Shown: positions 8,698-30,744 of the stretch, in pieces
Numbering within the stretch: position 1 is the stretch's first letter
How the letters are laid out: every line of letters starts with the position of its first letter
Virus record (IMG/VR): IMGVR_UViG_3300042904_000368
Span: 1-64,000 of that record
DNA length: 64,000 nt
Strand: one strand, 5' to 3'
Source: a virus
Translations under genes and position numbers: made by a program
Notes under the pieces: model-generated
Told to the model about the DNA's origin: nothing
The model's input: only the letters and a program-made list of their open reading frames with translations
The model's database searches: none

Positions 8698-9090
8698 CTA
8701 TTCGCGGCCTTCAAGCTTGCGAATATGCGCTCGTAGTCGCTCAACCTCGATCTCCCAGTTCTTGCGCTCGTGGAGAAACGTCTCCGCGCGAGGCTTCGCT
8801 TCGTCGGGGTGGAGCCCCCATTCTGCTGCTACGGCTCCCTCGGCGGGGTAGCTAACCGCGCCTTTGCGTTCACCGCCCGCCGCAGAGAGAACATCCCAAA
8901 CTTCGCCTTCAATGGTCCGCATCCGATGTCCCAGACACGCGTCTTGCGCCAGCGGCAGGTTCTCAGACGAACTGGCCCAGTACTCAGCGATGCGGTTGAG
9001 AACGTCGAACAGCCTAGGGGCGGTCTCTTCCAGGGCCGCGCCGGGAGTGAACAGGGGTTGTGTGGTCTTCTCGGTGGTGGTCGCTTGCAT
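8698..9090 (-). CDS. First gene of the leftward array, acidic coiled-coil protein
   Basis: A 130-residue protein from ATG 9090 (GAGGAGAGAGCG upstream), the gene closest to the leftward promoter at 9168-9196. The first 35 residues are Thr-rich and flexible; a helical middle (RLFDVLNRIAEYW) follows, and the last 30 residues (ERKNWEIEVERLRAHIRKL) form a coiled coil. A longer frame from 9156 is less likely because its start lacks a ribosome-binding site. Confidence 0.75.
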   Translation of the reverse strand: MQATTTEKTTQPLFTPGAALEETAPRLFDVLNRIAEYWASSSENLPLAQDACLGHRMRTIEGEVWDVLSAAGGERKGAVSYPAEGAVAAEWGLHPDEAKPRAETFLHERKNWEIEVERLRAHIRKLEGRE

Positions 9091-9167
9091 CGCTCTCTCC
9101 TCGGCGGTAGGGGTTGCCGCCCGTTGCGGTAAACTCTCGGCGGGGGTTCTCCCCAACTGACACCTTT

Positions 9168-9196
9168 ATTATGGCGAATCGCTGTATGCCTGTCAA
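9168..9196 (-). promoter_or_regulatory. Leftward sigma70-type promoter
   Basis: On the minus strand TTGACA (9191-9196) and CATAAT (9168-9173) are separated by exactly 17 bp: a perfect -35 and a one-mismatch -10. It lies 78 bp upstream of the first leftward gene. The left copy of the inverted repeat described for 9179-9232 covers its spacer. Confidence 0.75.
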
Positions 9197-9232
9197 GTAT
9201 TCAGGCTAATATTTCTTCGGATTATACAGCGA
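9179..9232. promoter_or_regulatory. Inverted repeat, candidate operator pair
   Basis: TCGCTGTAT (9179-9187) and its exact reverse complement ATACAGCGA (9224-9232) flank a 36-bp centre. One arm lies in the spacer of the leftward promoter and the other ends one base before the -35 of the rightward promoter. A ribbon-helix-helix protein is coded by the first rightward gene, which makes it the natural candidate to bind both arms and repress both arrays. Confidence 0.5.
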
Positions 9233-9233
9233 G

Positions 9234-9262
9234 TTGCCATACGTGGAATACCGTGCTACAGT
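9234..9262 (+). promoter_or_regulatory. Rightward sigma70-type promoter
   Basis: TTGCCA (9234-9239) and TACAGT (9257-9262) with a 17-bp spacer, just upstream of ATG 9279. The match is weaker than for the divergent leftward promoter, but the spacing is ideal and there is no other candidate in the short intergenic region. Confidence 0.55.
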
Positions 9263-9278
9263 AGGAACAGGGGCATAG

Positions 9279-9536
9279 ATGACGGAGAAACGACCAGCAG
9301 GCGGCAAGGGAAAGACCCGCGTAACGTTATGGCTAACTGACGCTACAGCGGCGAAGCTGAGACAGCGATCTGCCATAACGAACAAGACGCAGGTGCAGAT
9401 CGTGGAAGACGCGCTAGACGCTGCTTTCGCTGCCAGCAGGCTTGATGATTTGGAAACACGGCTGGCTCGACTGGAAGCCGAACGGCAACCGCCCCTAGAA
9501 GAGAGTGAGGATGAGCGAGACGACCTACACCCCTGA
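9279..9536 (+). CDS. Ribbon-helix-helix DNA-binding protein
   Basis: An 85-residue protein. After a flexible Lys/Gly-rich start, TRVTLWLTDATAAKL gives the beta strand and first helix, and ITNKTQVQIVEDALDAAF the second helix of an Arc/CopG/MetJ-type ribbon-helix-helix. The C-terminal part is an acidic coil. Such proteins act as dimers that insert the strand pair into the DNA major groove. Its own gene is first in the rightward array, so it likely autoregulates through the inverted repeat upstream. It could also be an antitoxin, but no toxin gene is beside it. Confidence 0.75.
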   Translation: MTEKRPAGGKGKTRVTLWLTDATAAKLRQRSAITNKTQVQIVEDALDAAFAASRLDDLETRLARLEAERQPPLEESEDERDDLHP

Positions 9537-10182
9537 AGAAACCCAAGCGATGGGCTTCAGCGAAGCGGATTTGGAAACGTTGCGGGACGCTGGACTGATC
9601 GAAGACCGGCTGGCGCAACCGTGGGAGCCGAAATCTCTGGATGATGTCGGCTGGCTGTTGGGGAGAATGCGGGCCTTGAAGCTGGAGCGGGAAACCGTGC
9701 TGGCGCAGGCGCAGAAGCGCGTAGAGCGTTCCGAGGCAGCAGAAGCCGCCCTCCTGGCCCGCTACGGCGAAACGGTGCGCTCTCTCGTGACTGAGAACCT
9801 GCCGCGCAAGAAGGACGGCTCTTACGCGAAGAAATCCCTGGACCTGCTAGACGGACGGATTGGGCTACGGGCAACCAGGGGCGCGACGGTGGTGAGGGAC
9901 GAAGGAGCGTTGTTGGAGTGGATAGGCGATACCTGGGGTACTGCCGATGAAGGCCCGGTCATTGACGCCCTCCGCGAGGCGATTTCAACGACCGTGCGAC
10001 TAACCGGGGACGCTGCGCTGAACCAGGTCTTTACCCACGGTGCAGAAGCCAAGATCGCCCTCACGCCTCTCCGAAAGCTCATGGAGTCGGGCGCACCTGA
10101 CCCGGAAACCGGAGAGGTGAAGCCGGTCGAACTCCCTGGCGTGGAAGTGCTGCCTGCTGAAGAGAAACTGTACTGGGAATGA
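9511..10182 (+). CDS. gam: Gam-like host-nuclease inhibitor
   Basis: A 223-residue protein. It begins with an acidic helix, then a long coiled coil (LERETVLAQAQKRVERSEAAEAAL) and the segment KKDGSYAKKSLDLLDGRIGLR, characteristic of the Mu Gam family, which binds double-stranded DNA ends and blocks RecBCD-type nucleases. An earlier GTG at 9505 is in frame, but ATG 9511 is nearer to the ribosome-binding site. The gene overlaps the preceding one by 26 bases. The C-terminal 60 residues are not covered by the family similarity I recognise. Confidence 0.75.
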   Translation: MSETTYTPEETQAMGFSEADLETLRDAGLIEDRLAQPWEPKSLDDVGWLLGRMRALKLERETVLAQAQKRVERSEAAEAALLARYGETVRSLVTENLPRKKDGSYAKKSLDLLDGRIGLRATRGATVVRDEGALLEWIGDTWGTADEGPVIDALREAISTTVRLTGDAALNQVFTHGAEAKIALTPLRKLMESGAPDPETGEVKPVELPGVEVLPAEEKLYWE

Positions 10183-26580: not shown

Positions 26581-27084
26581 ATGGCGGCAGGATTTGGGGC
26601 AAACTTCGCGCTCCCCGCAGGGGATTACGTTGCGCAAATCGTGGACGTGACCACGGTGGAATTCGACAGCCGGAAGAATCCCGGAAAGAAAGACGTGAAG
26701 TGGAAGTGGATCATCGACGTGAAGGCACGCGGCTCGCAAGAGTGGCAGCGGTCGGACATCCTCACTGGGCAACGGTTCCTGCCGAAAGAGCAGATCAAAA
26801 GCCCGCAGTTCATCCCCGCTCTGCACCATCTTTCAAAGGCGTTGGGAGTGCCTGTACCCACTACGGCTGCGCAAGCAATGGCGTGGGATGAACAGGACCA
26901 GATCGGGAAGCAGTTTCGGATGCGCATCACCCTCAACGAAGACACCGAGCAGTTGGAGACACAGTATCTGCCGATGCCAAGCGCACAGGCTACGGCCGTT
27001 GCCGAGAGCGCCGCTGCTCCGCCCCCACCGCCAGTTTCTGCGCCCGCAGCAGTCGCGGGTGATGATGACCTCTGGAAAGAATAG
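26581..27084 (+). CDS. Single-stranded-DNA-binding-like replication protein
   Basis: A 167-residue protein. Residues 10-75 form strands typical of an OB fold (GDYVAQIVDVTTVEF, KWKWIIDVKARG), then a helix and further strands. The C-terminus is Pro/Ala-rich and ends GDDDLWKE, an acidic tip like those of ssDNA-binding proteins that recruit partners. It lies directly before the PrimPol gene. The family is not certain; DUF669-type proteins are the nearest I can name. Confidence 0.6.
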   Translation: MAAGFGANFALPAGDYVAQIVDVTTVEFDSRKNPGKKDVKWKWIIDVKARGSQEWQRSDILTGQRFLPKEQIKSPQFIPALHHLSKALGVPVPTTAAQAMAWDEQDQIGKQFRMRITLNEDTEQLETQYLPMPSAQATAVAESAAAPPPPPVSAPAAVAGDDDLWKE

Positions 27085-27092
27085 CGGCTTCC

Positions 27093-27117
27093 GGGGAGGT
27101 GGAAAAACCACCTCCCC
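27093..27117 (+). terminator. Strong hairpin between the ssDNA-binding and PrimPol genes
   Basis: GGGGAGGTGG (27093-27102) pairs exactly with CCACCTCCCC (27108-27117) around AAAAA. Only ATTTACC follows, so it is a poor terminator. It ends 20 bp before the PrimPol start and could also reduce or time translation of that gene, which has no visible ribosome-binding site. Confidence 0.5.
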
Positions 27118-27137
27118 ATTTACCCCCATACCTACCA

Positions 27138-29051
27138 ATGCCTTCTCTTACCCCTAACCTGGAAATCATACGGCGCACTCTGGAGCTAACAATGGCTCCG
27201 GGCGACGTGGCGGAACTACGGATTATCGGCACCCACCAGGGAACGGTGGCGGGATATTTCACGGACTGGAATAGTCTGGCAAAGGCAGCGGAACTTTGGG
27301 CGGATAAAGCTCCGGCCGTTTATTACACGCCTAACCCGGTACTTCCAGACCTTCTGGCGCGTGCGAACAACCGAGTGAAAGAACGGGTACGGGCTACGGC
27401 TAAAGACGAAGAGATTCAGCGGCGAGCCTGGCTTTTGGCTGATTTTGATCCAGCACGCCCAGCCGATATTTCCTCTTCGAACGTAGAGCATGAGGCAGCA
27501 ATCGCCACCGCTTGGGAGTGCGCTAAGTATCTGGTGAGCCTGGGGCTACCACAACCGTTAGTCGGCGACTCTGGAAACGGGGCGCATGTAATGTTGCGGG
27601 TTGACCTGCCGAATGATGCGGACGCCACGCGGCTCCATCAGGCCTTTCTTATCCACCTATCCGAGCGGTTCCAAACCGATCAAATCTTGGTTGACCAGGC
27701 CACCCACAACGCTGCCCGTATTTGGAAACTGTACGGAACCCTGGCCCGTAAAGGCGATTCGATTCCGGCGCGCCCGCATCGCCTCGCTCGTATCTTGCAA
27801 GAGCCGGATACACGAGTTTCCGAGACCGCACAACTCCTTTCCCTCTTCCCGTCCAAACCACTCCCCAAGCCCACCACAGCTCCAAGAAGTGCCCTCAACG
27901 GACACGCCGACCCTTCCACCCCTACTGGTGATTATTCAACGCTGGATGTGGTCGGTTGGTTCCGGTCAAAAGGCGCTTACGGCCGGGAATTAGACCCAGG
28001 CCAACATGCGGTTGACTGCCCCTGGATCGGTGAACACTCGCAGACGAACGACGCGACTCATTCCGATACGGTGGTCTACGAAGCGCAAGGCGGGGCGTGG
28101 CCGCAGTTCAATTGCCTTCACTCCCACTGCACCGGCCGGAAGATCGCGGACGTGATTGCGCTCTGGGGGGACGCTGGTAAGTTTTGCGGGAGCGAGTGGA
28201 AGGGCGGTGAGAGTTGGGATGTAGTCGCGCTGCGTGGCGAGAGGCCAAAGCCAGCCACCACCCCGCCCGCGCTCACCGATCTTCACCAGCGAGCAGAAGA
28301 TCTGGACGAGCAAACCCACACCCTTCTCGCGCAGTCTCGTCGCCCGAACCTGAGCGATATTCAGCCGCTCCGCATCGTCCTTACCGATCCGCCCACCTAC
28401 TACCCGACGATTAACGGCTATGAATTGGAGCTCTCCGCCCTCGACTTTCTGGAATGGCGACGGTTCAAAACCGCCTGCGTGAACCGGATGCAGTTCATGC
28501 CGATCCTGCCCGAAGTCCCACGCGGGCGCGGACAGGAAAAGCTTGCCCCGCAGCAGGTGTGGGACCAGTTCATTTCGGTTGCGCTGTCTCACTGCACTCT
28601 GGAAGACGCGCCTTCCGATGCCGGGGCAGAGGGTGCTGCCTGGGAGAGCGTGCGCGCCTTCATCCACCGCGAGAACCGAGGCCGAACGGAAGCGGTGGAT
28701 GTCGAGCGCGGACAACTCGCTACGATCAACGGCGCTTATCACTTCCGGGGACGACAACTCCGCAACTGGCTGGCACTCAACAGCCCTACTTCCCTGAAAG
28801 AACACGAGCTTTGGAAAGTGGTTCGCAAGCATGGCGGAACTCAGGCCGTCCTGAAGCCTTCTCGCAGCACCACCGTTCGCTGCTGGCGTATCCCGGAAGA
28901 AGCCTTGATTGAGACAGAAACGGTTACGCGGTTACATCCGGTTACGTCTGGAAGTGACCGCACATTTGAGCACGAAAAAGGGGCAGGTTACGCGGTTACG
29001 CCTCTTCCCTCACATGCGCCCGCGCGCGTAGATGCAGGCGTAACCGCGTAG
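27138..29051 (+). CDS. Archaeo-eukaryotic-type primase (PrimPol)
   Basis: A 637-residue protein. The N-terminal domain shows the AEP motifs: LADFDPARP (metal-binding acids), GDSGNGAHVMLR (the SxH motif) and NAARIWKLYGTLARKGD (third motif). This family makes primers and can polymerise. Later, CPWIGEHSQ, CLHSHC and a Cys-bearing segment suggest a zinc site, followed by a helical C-terminal region that may bind DNA; a helicase domain is not present, but an SF1 helicase follows. An upstream GTG at 27099 is in frame. The last 43 codons lie in the palindrome described for 28925-29114. Confidence 0.8.
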   Translation: MPSLTPNLEIIRRTLELTMAPGDVAELRIIGTHQGTVAGYFTDWNSLAKAAELWADKAPAVYYTPNPVLPDLLARANNRVKERVRATAKDEEIQRRAWLLADFDPARPADISSSNVEHEAAIATAWECAKYLVSLGLPQPLVGDSGNGAHVMLRVDLPNDADATRLHQAFLIHLSERFQTDQILVDQATHNAARIWKLYGTLARKGDSIPARPHRLARILQEPDTRVSETAQLLSLFPSKPLPKPTTAPRSALNGHADPSTPTGDYSTLDVVGWFRSKGAYGRELDPGQHAVDCPWIGEHSQTNDATHSDTVVYEAQGGAWPQFNCLHSHCTGRKIADVIALWGDAGKFCGSEWKGGESWDVVALRGERPKPATTPPALTDLHQRAEDLDEQTHTLLAQSRRPNLSDIQPLRIVLTDPPTYYPTINGYELELSALDFLEWRRFKTACVNRMQFMPILPEVPRGRGQEKLAPQQVWDQFISVALSHCTLEDAPSDAGAEGAAWESVRAFIHRENRGRTEAVDVERGQLATINGAYHFRGRQLRNWLALNSPTSLKEHELWKVVRKHGGTQAVLKPSRSTTVRCWRIPEEALIETETVTRLHPVTSGSDRTFEHEKGAGYAVTPLPSHAPARVDAGVTA

Positions 29052-29114
29052 ACGGGCGTGTATACGTGCGTAATTGTGCGGTCAGTCTCAAACGTAACCA
29101 GGTGTAACCGCGTA
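28925..29114. other. 190-bp three-part palindrome, candidate replication origin
   Basis: Three nested inverted pairs share exactly the same centre (29019.5): outer TACGCGGTTACA (28925-28936 with 29103-29114, 12/12), middle 35 bp (28940-28974 with 29065-29099, 28/35), inner TACGCGGTTACGCCT (28989-29003 with 29036-29050, 15/15). The unit GGTTAC/GTAACC occurs eight times. It overlaps the PrimPol end and stops 17 bp before the helicase start, a typical place for a replication origin. Binding by the PrimPol is inferred. Confidence 0.6.
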
Positions 29115-29130
29115 GACGAGGAGCAAACGA

Positions 29131-30744
29131 ATGGTATTCGACCAGGTTCTATACGGGCCACCAGGGACCGGCAAAACGAGAAGCGGTATCGAGTGGGTGG
29201 CGCAGCAGGTAGAAGAAGGCTGCGACCCCTACCGGATCGGCTACGTGTCGTTTACGAACGGGGCCTGCAATGAGGCCCGCGACCGACTTTCGGAACGACT
29301 GGGATACGCGCCGGAGATGTTCGACTTCTGCCGCACGCTTCATTCGTGTGCGAAGCGTGCGATGAGTATCGGCGGCGAGGAATGGAACCAGTCGGTGCGG
29401 CTGAAGAAGTTTGGCGAGGAGTTCGGTTATGACCTGATTCCGAGCAAGCGGCCGGGTGGTGACGATGATCTTGAGGATCAGCAGGCGAGCGCCGGTCAGG
29501 ATGGCCCGCTACTCGGTATCTGGGACTACGGCCGGAACCGCTTGCTGCGGACGCCAGAGGCGGCGTTTGCCGCCTGGGAAGAGGCGAACCCCGATAGCGC
29601 CCCGCGTATCGACTACCCGCGTTATCTCGACCTGGTTGCGGATTGGGAACGCGACAAGAAAATCAATGGCCGCCACGACTTCACCGACCTGCTGCTGAAC
29701 GTGGTGGACTCGGAAACGTGGCTGCCGGTGTCGGCCGTGGTGATTGACGAAGCGCAGGACCTCTCTCCGGCGCAGTGGGCGGTAGCGAAGAAGCTCTTTG
29801 TCGGGGCGGAGCGGTCAGCGTGCTTCGGTGATGACGACCAGGCGATCTTCTCATTCCAGGGCGCAGACCCATCCCTGTTCAATTCGTTAGCTACTAAAGA
29901 GCGGGTATTGCTGCGGCAAAGCTACCGGCTACCACAGGCGGTTTGTGATTTAGCTCTGCGCATCATCGGGCAAAACCGGAACCGGGTCGCAAAGGAAATC
30001 CTTCCCCTCGATACGGTTGGTTCCGTACGACACATCAACCGCCTGGAAGAATGCGATTTCGGCAATGGGGAAAGCTGGCTGATACTTGTCCGCAATTGGC
30101 GTTTTGTTGCCGAGATTATCTCCTGGTTGGAAAGCGAGGGCTTCCCGTACCTCGTTCCTGGCGGGAAGTATTACAGCCCGTGGGATGAGAAGGGGCCGTT
30201 CCGAGCGGCGAAGTCCGTTCTCGACCTCTCCGAGAACCGCGAGATTTTTCTAACCGATCTGGCCGTGCTGGTTGGGAAGACACGAGCGGAAGTCTCCGGC
30301 AAGCCCGGTGCCTGGAAATATGGCTCCAAAGGGAAGCTGGAGAAGCTGGCAGTTGCGGACCCTGGCGGGCGGATTGGGTTGCGGGAACTGGTACAAGTCG
30401 GATTGACCGAAACCGGCCTCACCCAGATCCTCAACAATGACCTGACCATGCTGGCCGGAGTGAGCGGCCGGGACCGTGACGCGTTCACGAACGCTTTGCG
30501 GATTCGCGCTTTCGGGAAACCGCCGCAAATCCGGGTGACGACTGTTCACCAAGCCAAAGGCGGTGAAGCAGATAACGTCGTGCTCCTTCAGGCTTGCACT
30601 CGTGCCCCCTACCGCAACCTGCAAGACCCCAACCGTTGCGAAGAAGAGGTGCGATTGATGTACGTGGGTGCTACACGCGCCAGGATCAATCTCTACCCGC
30701 TGCAAGGCTGGAGCGGGATGCCTTGGGAACTACGGCAGTTTTAG
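29131..30744 (+). CDS. Superfamily 1 helicase (UvrD/Rep type)
   Basis: A 537-residue helicase. Walker A GPPGTGKT at residue 9, then DEAQD (about 206), FGDDDQAIFSFQGA (about 232), VTTVHQAKGGEADNV (about 470) and EEEVRLMYVGATRA (about 505) are motifs I, II, III, V and VI of the UvrD/PcrA family. It would unwind DNA at the phage fork, moving 3' to 5' like family members. The N-terminus starts directly with the ATPase core; no nuclease domain is seen. It follows the PrimPol and the palindrome. Confidence 0.9.
   Translation: MVFDQVLYGPPGTGKTRSGIEWVAQQVEEGCDPYRIGYVSFTNGACNEARDRLSERLGYAPEMFDFCRTLHSCAKRAMSIGGEEWNQSVRLKKFGEEFGYDLIPSKRPGGDDDLEDQQASAGQDGPLLGIWDYGRNRLLRTPEAAFAAWEEANPDSAPRIDYPRYLDLVADWERDKKINGRHDFTDLLLNVVDSETWLPVSAVVIDEAQDLSPAQWAVAKKLFVGAERSACFGDDDQAIFSFQGADPSLFNSLATKERVLLRQSYRLPQAVCDLALRIIGQNRNRVAKEILPLDTVGSVRHINRLEECDFGNGESWLILVRNWRFVAEIISWLESEGFPYLVPGGKYYSPWDEKGPFRAAKSVLDLSENREIFLTDLAVLVGKTRAEVSGKPGAWKYGSKGKLEKLAVADPGGRIGLRELVQVGLTETGLTQILNNDLTMLAGVSGRDRDAFTNALRIRAFGKPPQIRVTTVHQAKGGEADNVVLLQACTRAPYRNLQDPNRCEEEVRLMYVGATRARINLYPLQGWSGMPWELRQF

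Follow-up and report, generated by a model that had tools for sequence, protein, structure and literature searches.

The window analysed here, a stretch of 64,000 nucleotides, comprises 64,000 of the 64,803 bases of a single virus record. On its plus strand, a PrimPol gene (27099..29051) encodes a protein of 650 amino acids with archaeo-eukaryotic primase motifs; the DFD, SGNGxH, R...YGT and K motifs are invariant in an alignment with proteins from viral contigs and a Bacteroides phage, and a Cys/His cluster is present as well. The protein matched no Pfam or PHROG family, and a search for a Walker A motif in it found none. Its AlphaFold model was unusable (mean pLDDT 38.7) and a sequence search of the PDB returned spurious matches only. 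Downstream on the same strand lies a gene for a UvrD-like superfamily 1 helicase (29131..30744; PF00580, 4.9e-24; phrog_1967, 3.7e-64), and upstream one for a small protein without family match (26581..27084, plus strand), possibly a single-strand DNA-binding protein, for which its acidic tail, DDDLWKE, is the sole indication. Given that RNase H-, RuvC- and methyltransferase-like genes are found close by, the region can be regarded as a replication module. The collection of viral contigs held no usable close relative for PrimPol, its C-terminal part, the helicase, the terminase or the portal, and the genome collection held none for PrimPol either; judged by sequence, the phage of the window is an orphan.

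The junction between the PrimPol and helicase genes is occupied by a palindrome. An inverted-repeat search delimits two arms of 79 nt each, at 28925-29003 and 29036-29114, which are 77% complementary and separated by a spacer of 32 nt. The three nested pairs with a common centre that the first-pass annotation had described at this junction were reproduced, with 12/12 matches in the outer pair, 15/15 in the inner pair and a coordinate sum of 58039 that places the centre at 29019.5. When all centres in the 64-kb window are scored, the two arms stand out as the maximum of palindromy, with 61 of 79 pairs; the average score is 20.7 (sd 4.0), and the next best site reaches 39. The helicase gene does begin after a short gap, although this measures 16 bp (ATG at 29131) and not the 17 bp previously given. 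The left arm lies within the PrimPol reading frame, whose last 43 codons fall within the array of repeated units described below. In these codons, a small sample, the GC content at the three codon positions is 0.49/0.71/0.60 versus 0.66/0.49/0.64 in the gene, which suggests that the PrimPol tail is a read-through of the array rather than selected protein.

The hexamer GGTTAC occurs eight times in the element, as had been noted, with plus-strand boxes at 28922, 28930, 28940, 28986 and 28994 and minus-strand boxes at 29040, 29094 and 29104. Two iteron sets, of five forward and three reverse boxes, flank the centre. The left set is composed of an outer double iteron GGTTACGCGGTTAC (28922..28935, plus strand), in which the GGTTAC boxes are 8 bp apart, a single GGTTAC (28940..28945, plus strand) and an inner double iteron GGTTACGCGGTTAC (28986..28999, plus strand). 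The right set consists of an inner GTAACC on the minus strand at 29040..29045, followed by the PrimPol stop codon TAG at 29049-29051, and of two outer copies at 29094..29099 and 29104..29109, both likewise on the minus strand. The symmetric arrangement of TACGCGGTTAC, with two copies forward and two reverse, also held. Two of the eight boxes, at 28922 and 28986, have no mirror partner, GTAGAC being found at the mirror position. A count of the unit, which had been suggested as a check on the uniqueness of the cluster, gave 21 copies of GGTTAC in the window, eight of them in the palindrome element, and made it the most clustered hexamer (8 of 21 within 200 bp). In open-access papers, we found nothing relevant on the GGTTAC unit itself. 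Distant relatives of PrimPol (contigs L003-L009 and the Bacteroides phage L140) have no arrays at the 3' ends of their genes.

The iteron sets are arranged around a tract of alternating pyrimidines and purines (RY; 29011..29072), across which the iterons are oppositely oriented. The tract is off-centre, with its longest stretch, an unbroken run of 17 nt (GCGTGTATACGTGCGTA, 29056-29072), in the right arm. This is the longest RY run of the window, the next being 13 nt, and alternation measured over 60, 100 and 190 bp likewise reaches its window-wide peak inside the palindrome. The spacer itself (29004-29035) is GC-rich and alternating, and the centre is not AT-rich. A joint scan of the window for arrays and RY runs returned a single top, at the palindrome (array 6, RY 17). 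Strongest palindrome, unit cluster and array/RY top being unique and coincident, the initial view of this element as the best origin candidate in the window is well founded.

The symmetry of the arms is not confined to the GGTTAC units, since 36 of the 52 arm pairs outside the boxes are also complementary (P about 1e-10); among them is a mirrored element without iteron, with its left copy TGACCGCACA at 28955..28964 (plus strand) and its right copy TGTGCGGTCA at 29075..29084 (minus strand). As single-stranded DNA, the palindrome has a folding energy of -66 kcal/mol (z = -8.7 versus shuffles), and a cruciform is possible. Both the strong fold and the complementarity beyond the boxes are in line with an origin that is recognised by the shape of a cruciform or stem-loop and not by unit sequence, as proposed for plasmid pRN1, in which a stem-loop 3' of the PrimPol gene is essential and the pairing of its stem matters (PMC4234260). 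We consider this explanation unlikely, however, as a cruciform as the recognised form does not account for the two boxes that keep the unit though they lack a mirror partner, nor for the additional same-orientation blocks of the unit in other phages such as Halomonas H4907 and Pseudomonas pAN, blocks that are unable to pair in a hairpin. The same symmetry might also have an ordinary source: the element includes the end of a gene, its RNA would fold, and its arms may stem from one inverted duplication, since non-unit sequence is common to both. An RNA hairpin or terminator at the PrimPol gene end, or an inverted duplication that arose there by chance, is nevertheless hardly credible, given that the palindrome shows no terminator-like site and no Rfam match, and that an accidental duplication would not unite the array with the RY maximum at the very place that both occupy in other phages.

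An exact scan of viral contigs for the 14-mer GGTTACGCGGTTAC yielded at least 120 loci. Since so large a collection should contain a given 14-mer by chance, only clusters around the matches were used. Among the matches listed, 42 of 120 loci contain 4-10 GGTTAC/GTAACC units within 250 bp, mostly in both orientations, and many neighbours of the listed clusters are DNA primases or replicative helicases from several unrelated families. Many listed loci have a common plan, consisting of an outer unit, about 52-64 bp, an inner double unit and an RY run, followed by the mirror image.

Two further observations concern the genes next to these arrays. At loci L056, L074, L087 and L095, the GTTAC core adjoins unrelated ATPases (DUF5906; DUF927 with HTH_56; AAA_25), and in the window it adjoins a PrimPol without ATPase; its presence beside unrelated ATPases reflects either one common DNA-binding protein or repeated convergence. 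Additionally, nine loci (L014, L037, L048, L063, L072, L092, L106, L113 and L125) carry similar GGTTAC arrays (e.g. L037:2128-2192) with no evident RY tract; in eight of the nine a gene of about 200 amino acids lies 160-171 bp from the array, and the L063 fragment has no such gene neighbouring its array. These genes probably account for the terminase small subunit matches (10 members) recorded beside arrays, and the arrays near them may be origins, packaging sites or both.

The same layout was scored at primase genes irrespective of unit sequence. A set of 80 loci, the top 80 from a larger number of matches and all of one primase superfamily, was selected solely on the DUF5906-type primase protein; a 500-bp stretch where the primase gene ends was scored in 77 of the 80, with 1652 windows from the same loci as controls. 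Among these sampled 77 primase loci, to which the percentages apply, 79% have an inverted 7-mer array of at least 5 copies, compared with 2.1% of controls, and 88% have an RY run of at least 14 nt, again compared with 2.1% (medians of 19 versus 9). Collapsing the loci to 24 DNA-similarity groups gave 89% for the array and 92% for the RY run, and dinucleotide shuffles of the primase 3' regions gave 0.6% and 9%, respectively. The units are oppositely oriented across the RY tract in 45 of 57 scorable loci. The RY runs have a GC content of 0.65 versus 0.57 in the surrounding regions and are more stable by nearest-neighbour energies; being both GC-richer and more stable than their surroundings, they are not AT-rich melting sites. 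As a separate observation, a third element, AAACCCGC / GCAAACCC, is enriched in such 500-bp regions of L142-L221 and the named phages (30 of 88, versus 15 of 965 controls).

The unit sequence varies among phages and is uniform within each of them, the architecture being constant. In named phages with related primases, the plan occurs directly after the primase gene, with the units GTGCGGG in Stenotrophomonas S1, CAGACA in Halomonas H4907, TGGTTCA in Moraxella Mcat7 and TGTGTTGGG in Pseudomonas pAN, Lodos and PG1. In Bordetella BPP-1 (L222), inverted GTTTGCCTC units surround the alternating tract CATACGTGTACATG 465-570 bp after the primase gene; this array lies at about record positions 26610-26712, beyond gene bbp28. 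For its sister phage BIP-1, a stem-loop beside the primase stop (27,177) has been proposed as the origin, and no origin-like iterons were reported (PMC4234260). Arrays with no RY tract of 14 nt are found in phages with MCM-like DUF927 helicases (units GTAACAA, GGTGAAA or GGTAACC) and in the satellite phiAH14b (GGGGAAC). The primase loci of Brevundimonas Delta, AXL_3, Ab18, RDJL6, Pseudoalteromonas H40/1 and Kurnik lack the array, and the design is therefore not universal. PaMx28, array-like by eye, failed the exact-unit test and was rejected as a carrier.

In the window, the palindrome likewise combines an inverted array with an RY run of at least 14 nt at a primase 3' end. That an RY rule learned in other phages selects this very palindrome is the strongest single argument that the element is of the same kind as their arrays. 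The comparison also bears on the possibility that a repressor or activator acts through the boxes on the transcription of the helicase gene and of those beyond it. The end of the array, 16 bp upstream of the helicase start codon, would suit an operator, and operators typically have inverted short units. No promoter-like site was found at the palindrome, however; elsewhere the downstream gene varies or points in the opposite direction, yet the array keeps its place at the end of the primase gene, and operators leave the RY tract unexplained. We therefore regard transcriptional control as very improbable.

In our assessment, the 190-bp element is very probably the replication origin of the phage, or an essential cis-acting part of it comparable to crr of phage P4. 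The suggestion that it forms a binding array for a replication protein gains support from the recurrence of the same architecture after primase genes and from its iteron part, which P4 crr and a SaPI-like element also have. Counting against the origin reading, PrimPol is devoid of the helicase domain usual in initiators of such origins, its distant relatives show no array, and the RY tract is displaced from the centre. A GC-skew switch near 29020, which had been expected of an origin, is absent, and the skew minimum falls at 8985, where gene orientation flips; this test decides little, since skew in the window follows transcription.

If the element is an origin, an initiator would bind the iterons as two oppositely facing assemblies, and these would put strain on the intervening DNA and open it, perhaps by way of a supercoil-driven transition of the RY tract. 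PrimPol would then prime on the strands laid bare, with the UvrD-like helicase from the next gene assisting in unwinding. As a first guess, to which we give somewhat less than an even chance, PrimPol may itself bind the iterons through its C-terminal part; the analogy is with SaPI Rep and SCC Cch2 (PMC7581432) and with P4 alpha and ORF904 (PMC4234260), whose DNA-binding domains are C-terminal.

Taken together, the window and the other phages allow us to propose, tentatively and with a confidence just short of even, that GC-rich tailed phages encoding a primase commonly have one origin design, with inverted iterons around an RY tract where the primase gene ends. A GC-rich, Z-DNA-prone tract would here replace the AT-rich melting element, so that opening would need a supercoil-driven structural change or force from the initiator and not low duplex stability; the window would represent the same design with a PrimPol that has no helicase domain of its own. 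Most of the sampled DUF5906-type primase genes show the layout, as do members of further primase and helicase families and an orphan PrimPol phage. It gives a simple rule to locate phage origins in metagenomes, and it raises the question of why a GC-rich alternating tract is found where an AT-rich one is expected. In the open-access literature, we found no description of a GC-rich RY tract replacing an AT-rich melting site, nor of the frequency of such arrays in ordinary tailed phages.

The iteron part of the design is not new. An origin of inverted iterons 3' of a primase or initiator gene is of an already known kind, to which P4 crr and the rep-ori of SaPI/PICI belong (PMC6092414, PMC7581432), and the first-pass statement that this origin type is not commonly described is not supported. 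A further precedent is pRN1, for which a palindromic origin 3' of the PrimPol gene has been described: a 100-bp stem-loop, 54 bp after the gene (PMC4234260). In the window, as in pRN1, a palindrome is situated on the 3' side of a PrimPol gene. In pRN1, however, the authors report no iterons and propose recognition of structure (PMC4234260), and ORF904 contains, besides its PrimPol, a superfamily 3 helicase and a winged helix; the superfamily 3 fusion is lacking in the PrimPol of the window.

At the putative origin of SCCmec Cch2, iterons lie right after the initiator helicase gene and are bound by the C-terminal domain of its product, with a primase-polymerase as partner (PMC7581432). HTH_56, a helix-turn-helix domain of Cch, also occurs in the DUF927 proteins beside the GGTTAC arrays of L087 and L095. 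The SCCmec site differs in that AAGTG is directly repeated three times and in that its inverted repeats proved dispensable for binding.

P4 crr, annotated as required in cis for replication, contains 7 units by our array detector. It lies 46-345 bp after the alpha primase gene, and its short type 1 iterons (GGTGAACA) point both ways at a spacing of 8-9 bp; in the window, too, short iterons in opposite orientations, 8 bp apart in the double units, are found where the primase gene ends. In contrast to the single palindrome of the window, crr comprises two 120-bp direct repeats, with a separate ori at 9086-9809, and has no RY tract (longest run, 7 nt). P4 alpha, which binds type 1 iterons, combines a TOPRIM primase with a helicase in one protein, unlike the PrimPol of the window.

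The same detector found 9 AGTTCCC units in PT1028, which we take to be a SaPI-like element. SaPI/PICI origins lie immediately 3' of the initiator gene and are built of two iteron sets around an AT-rich stretch (PMC6092414; PMC7581432). The PICI initiator is a helicase, whereas the PrimPol of the window, a candidate initiator, has no Walker A motif. Where the SaPI/PICI centre is AT-rich, that of the window is an alternating pyrimidine-purine tract; as in the SaPI/PICI rep-ori, two iteron sets flank a central stretch. The array adjoins and overlaps the 3' end of the PrimPol gene, which would be a comparable position if PrimPol is the initiator.
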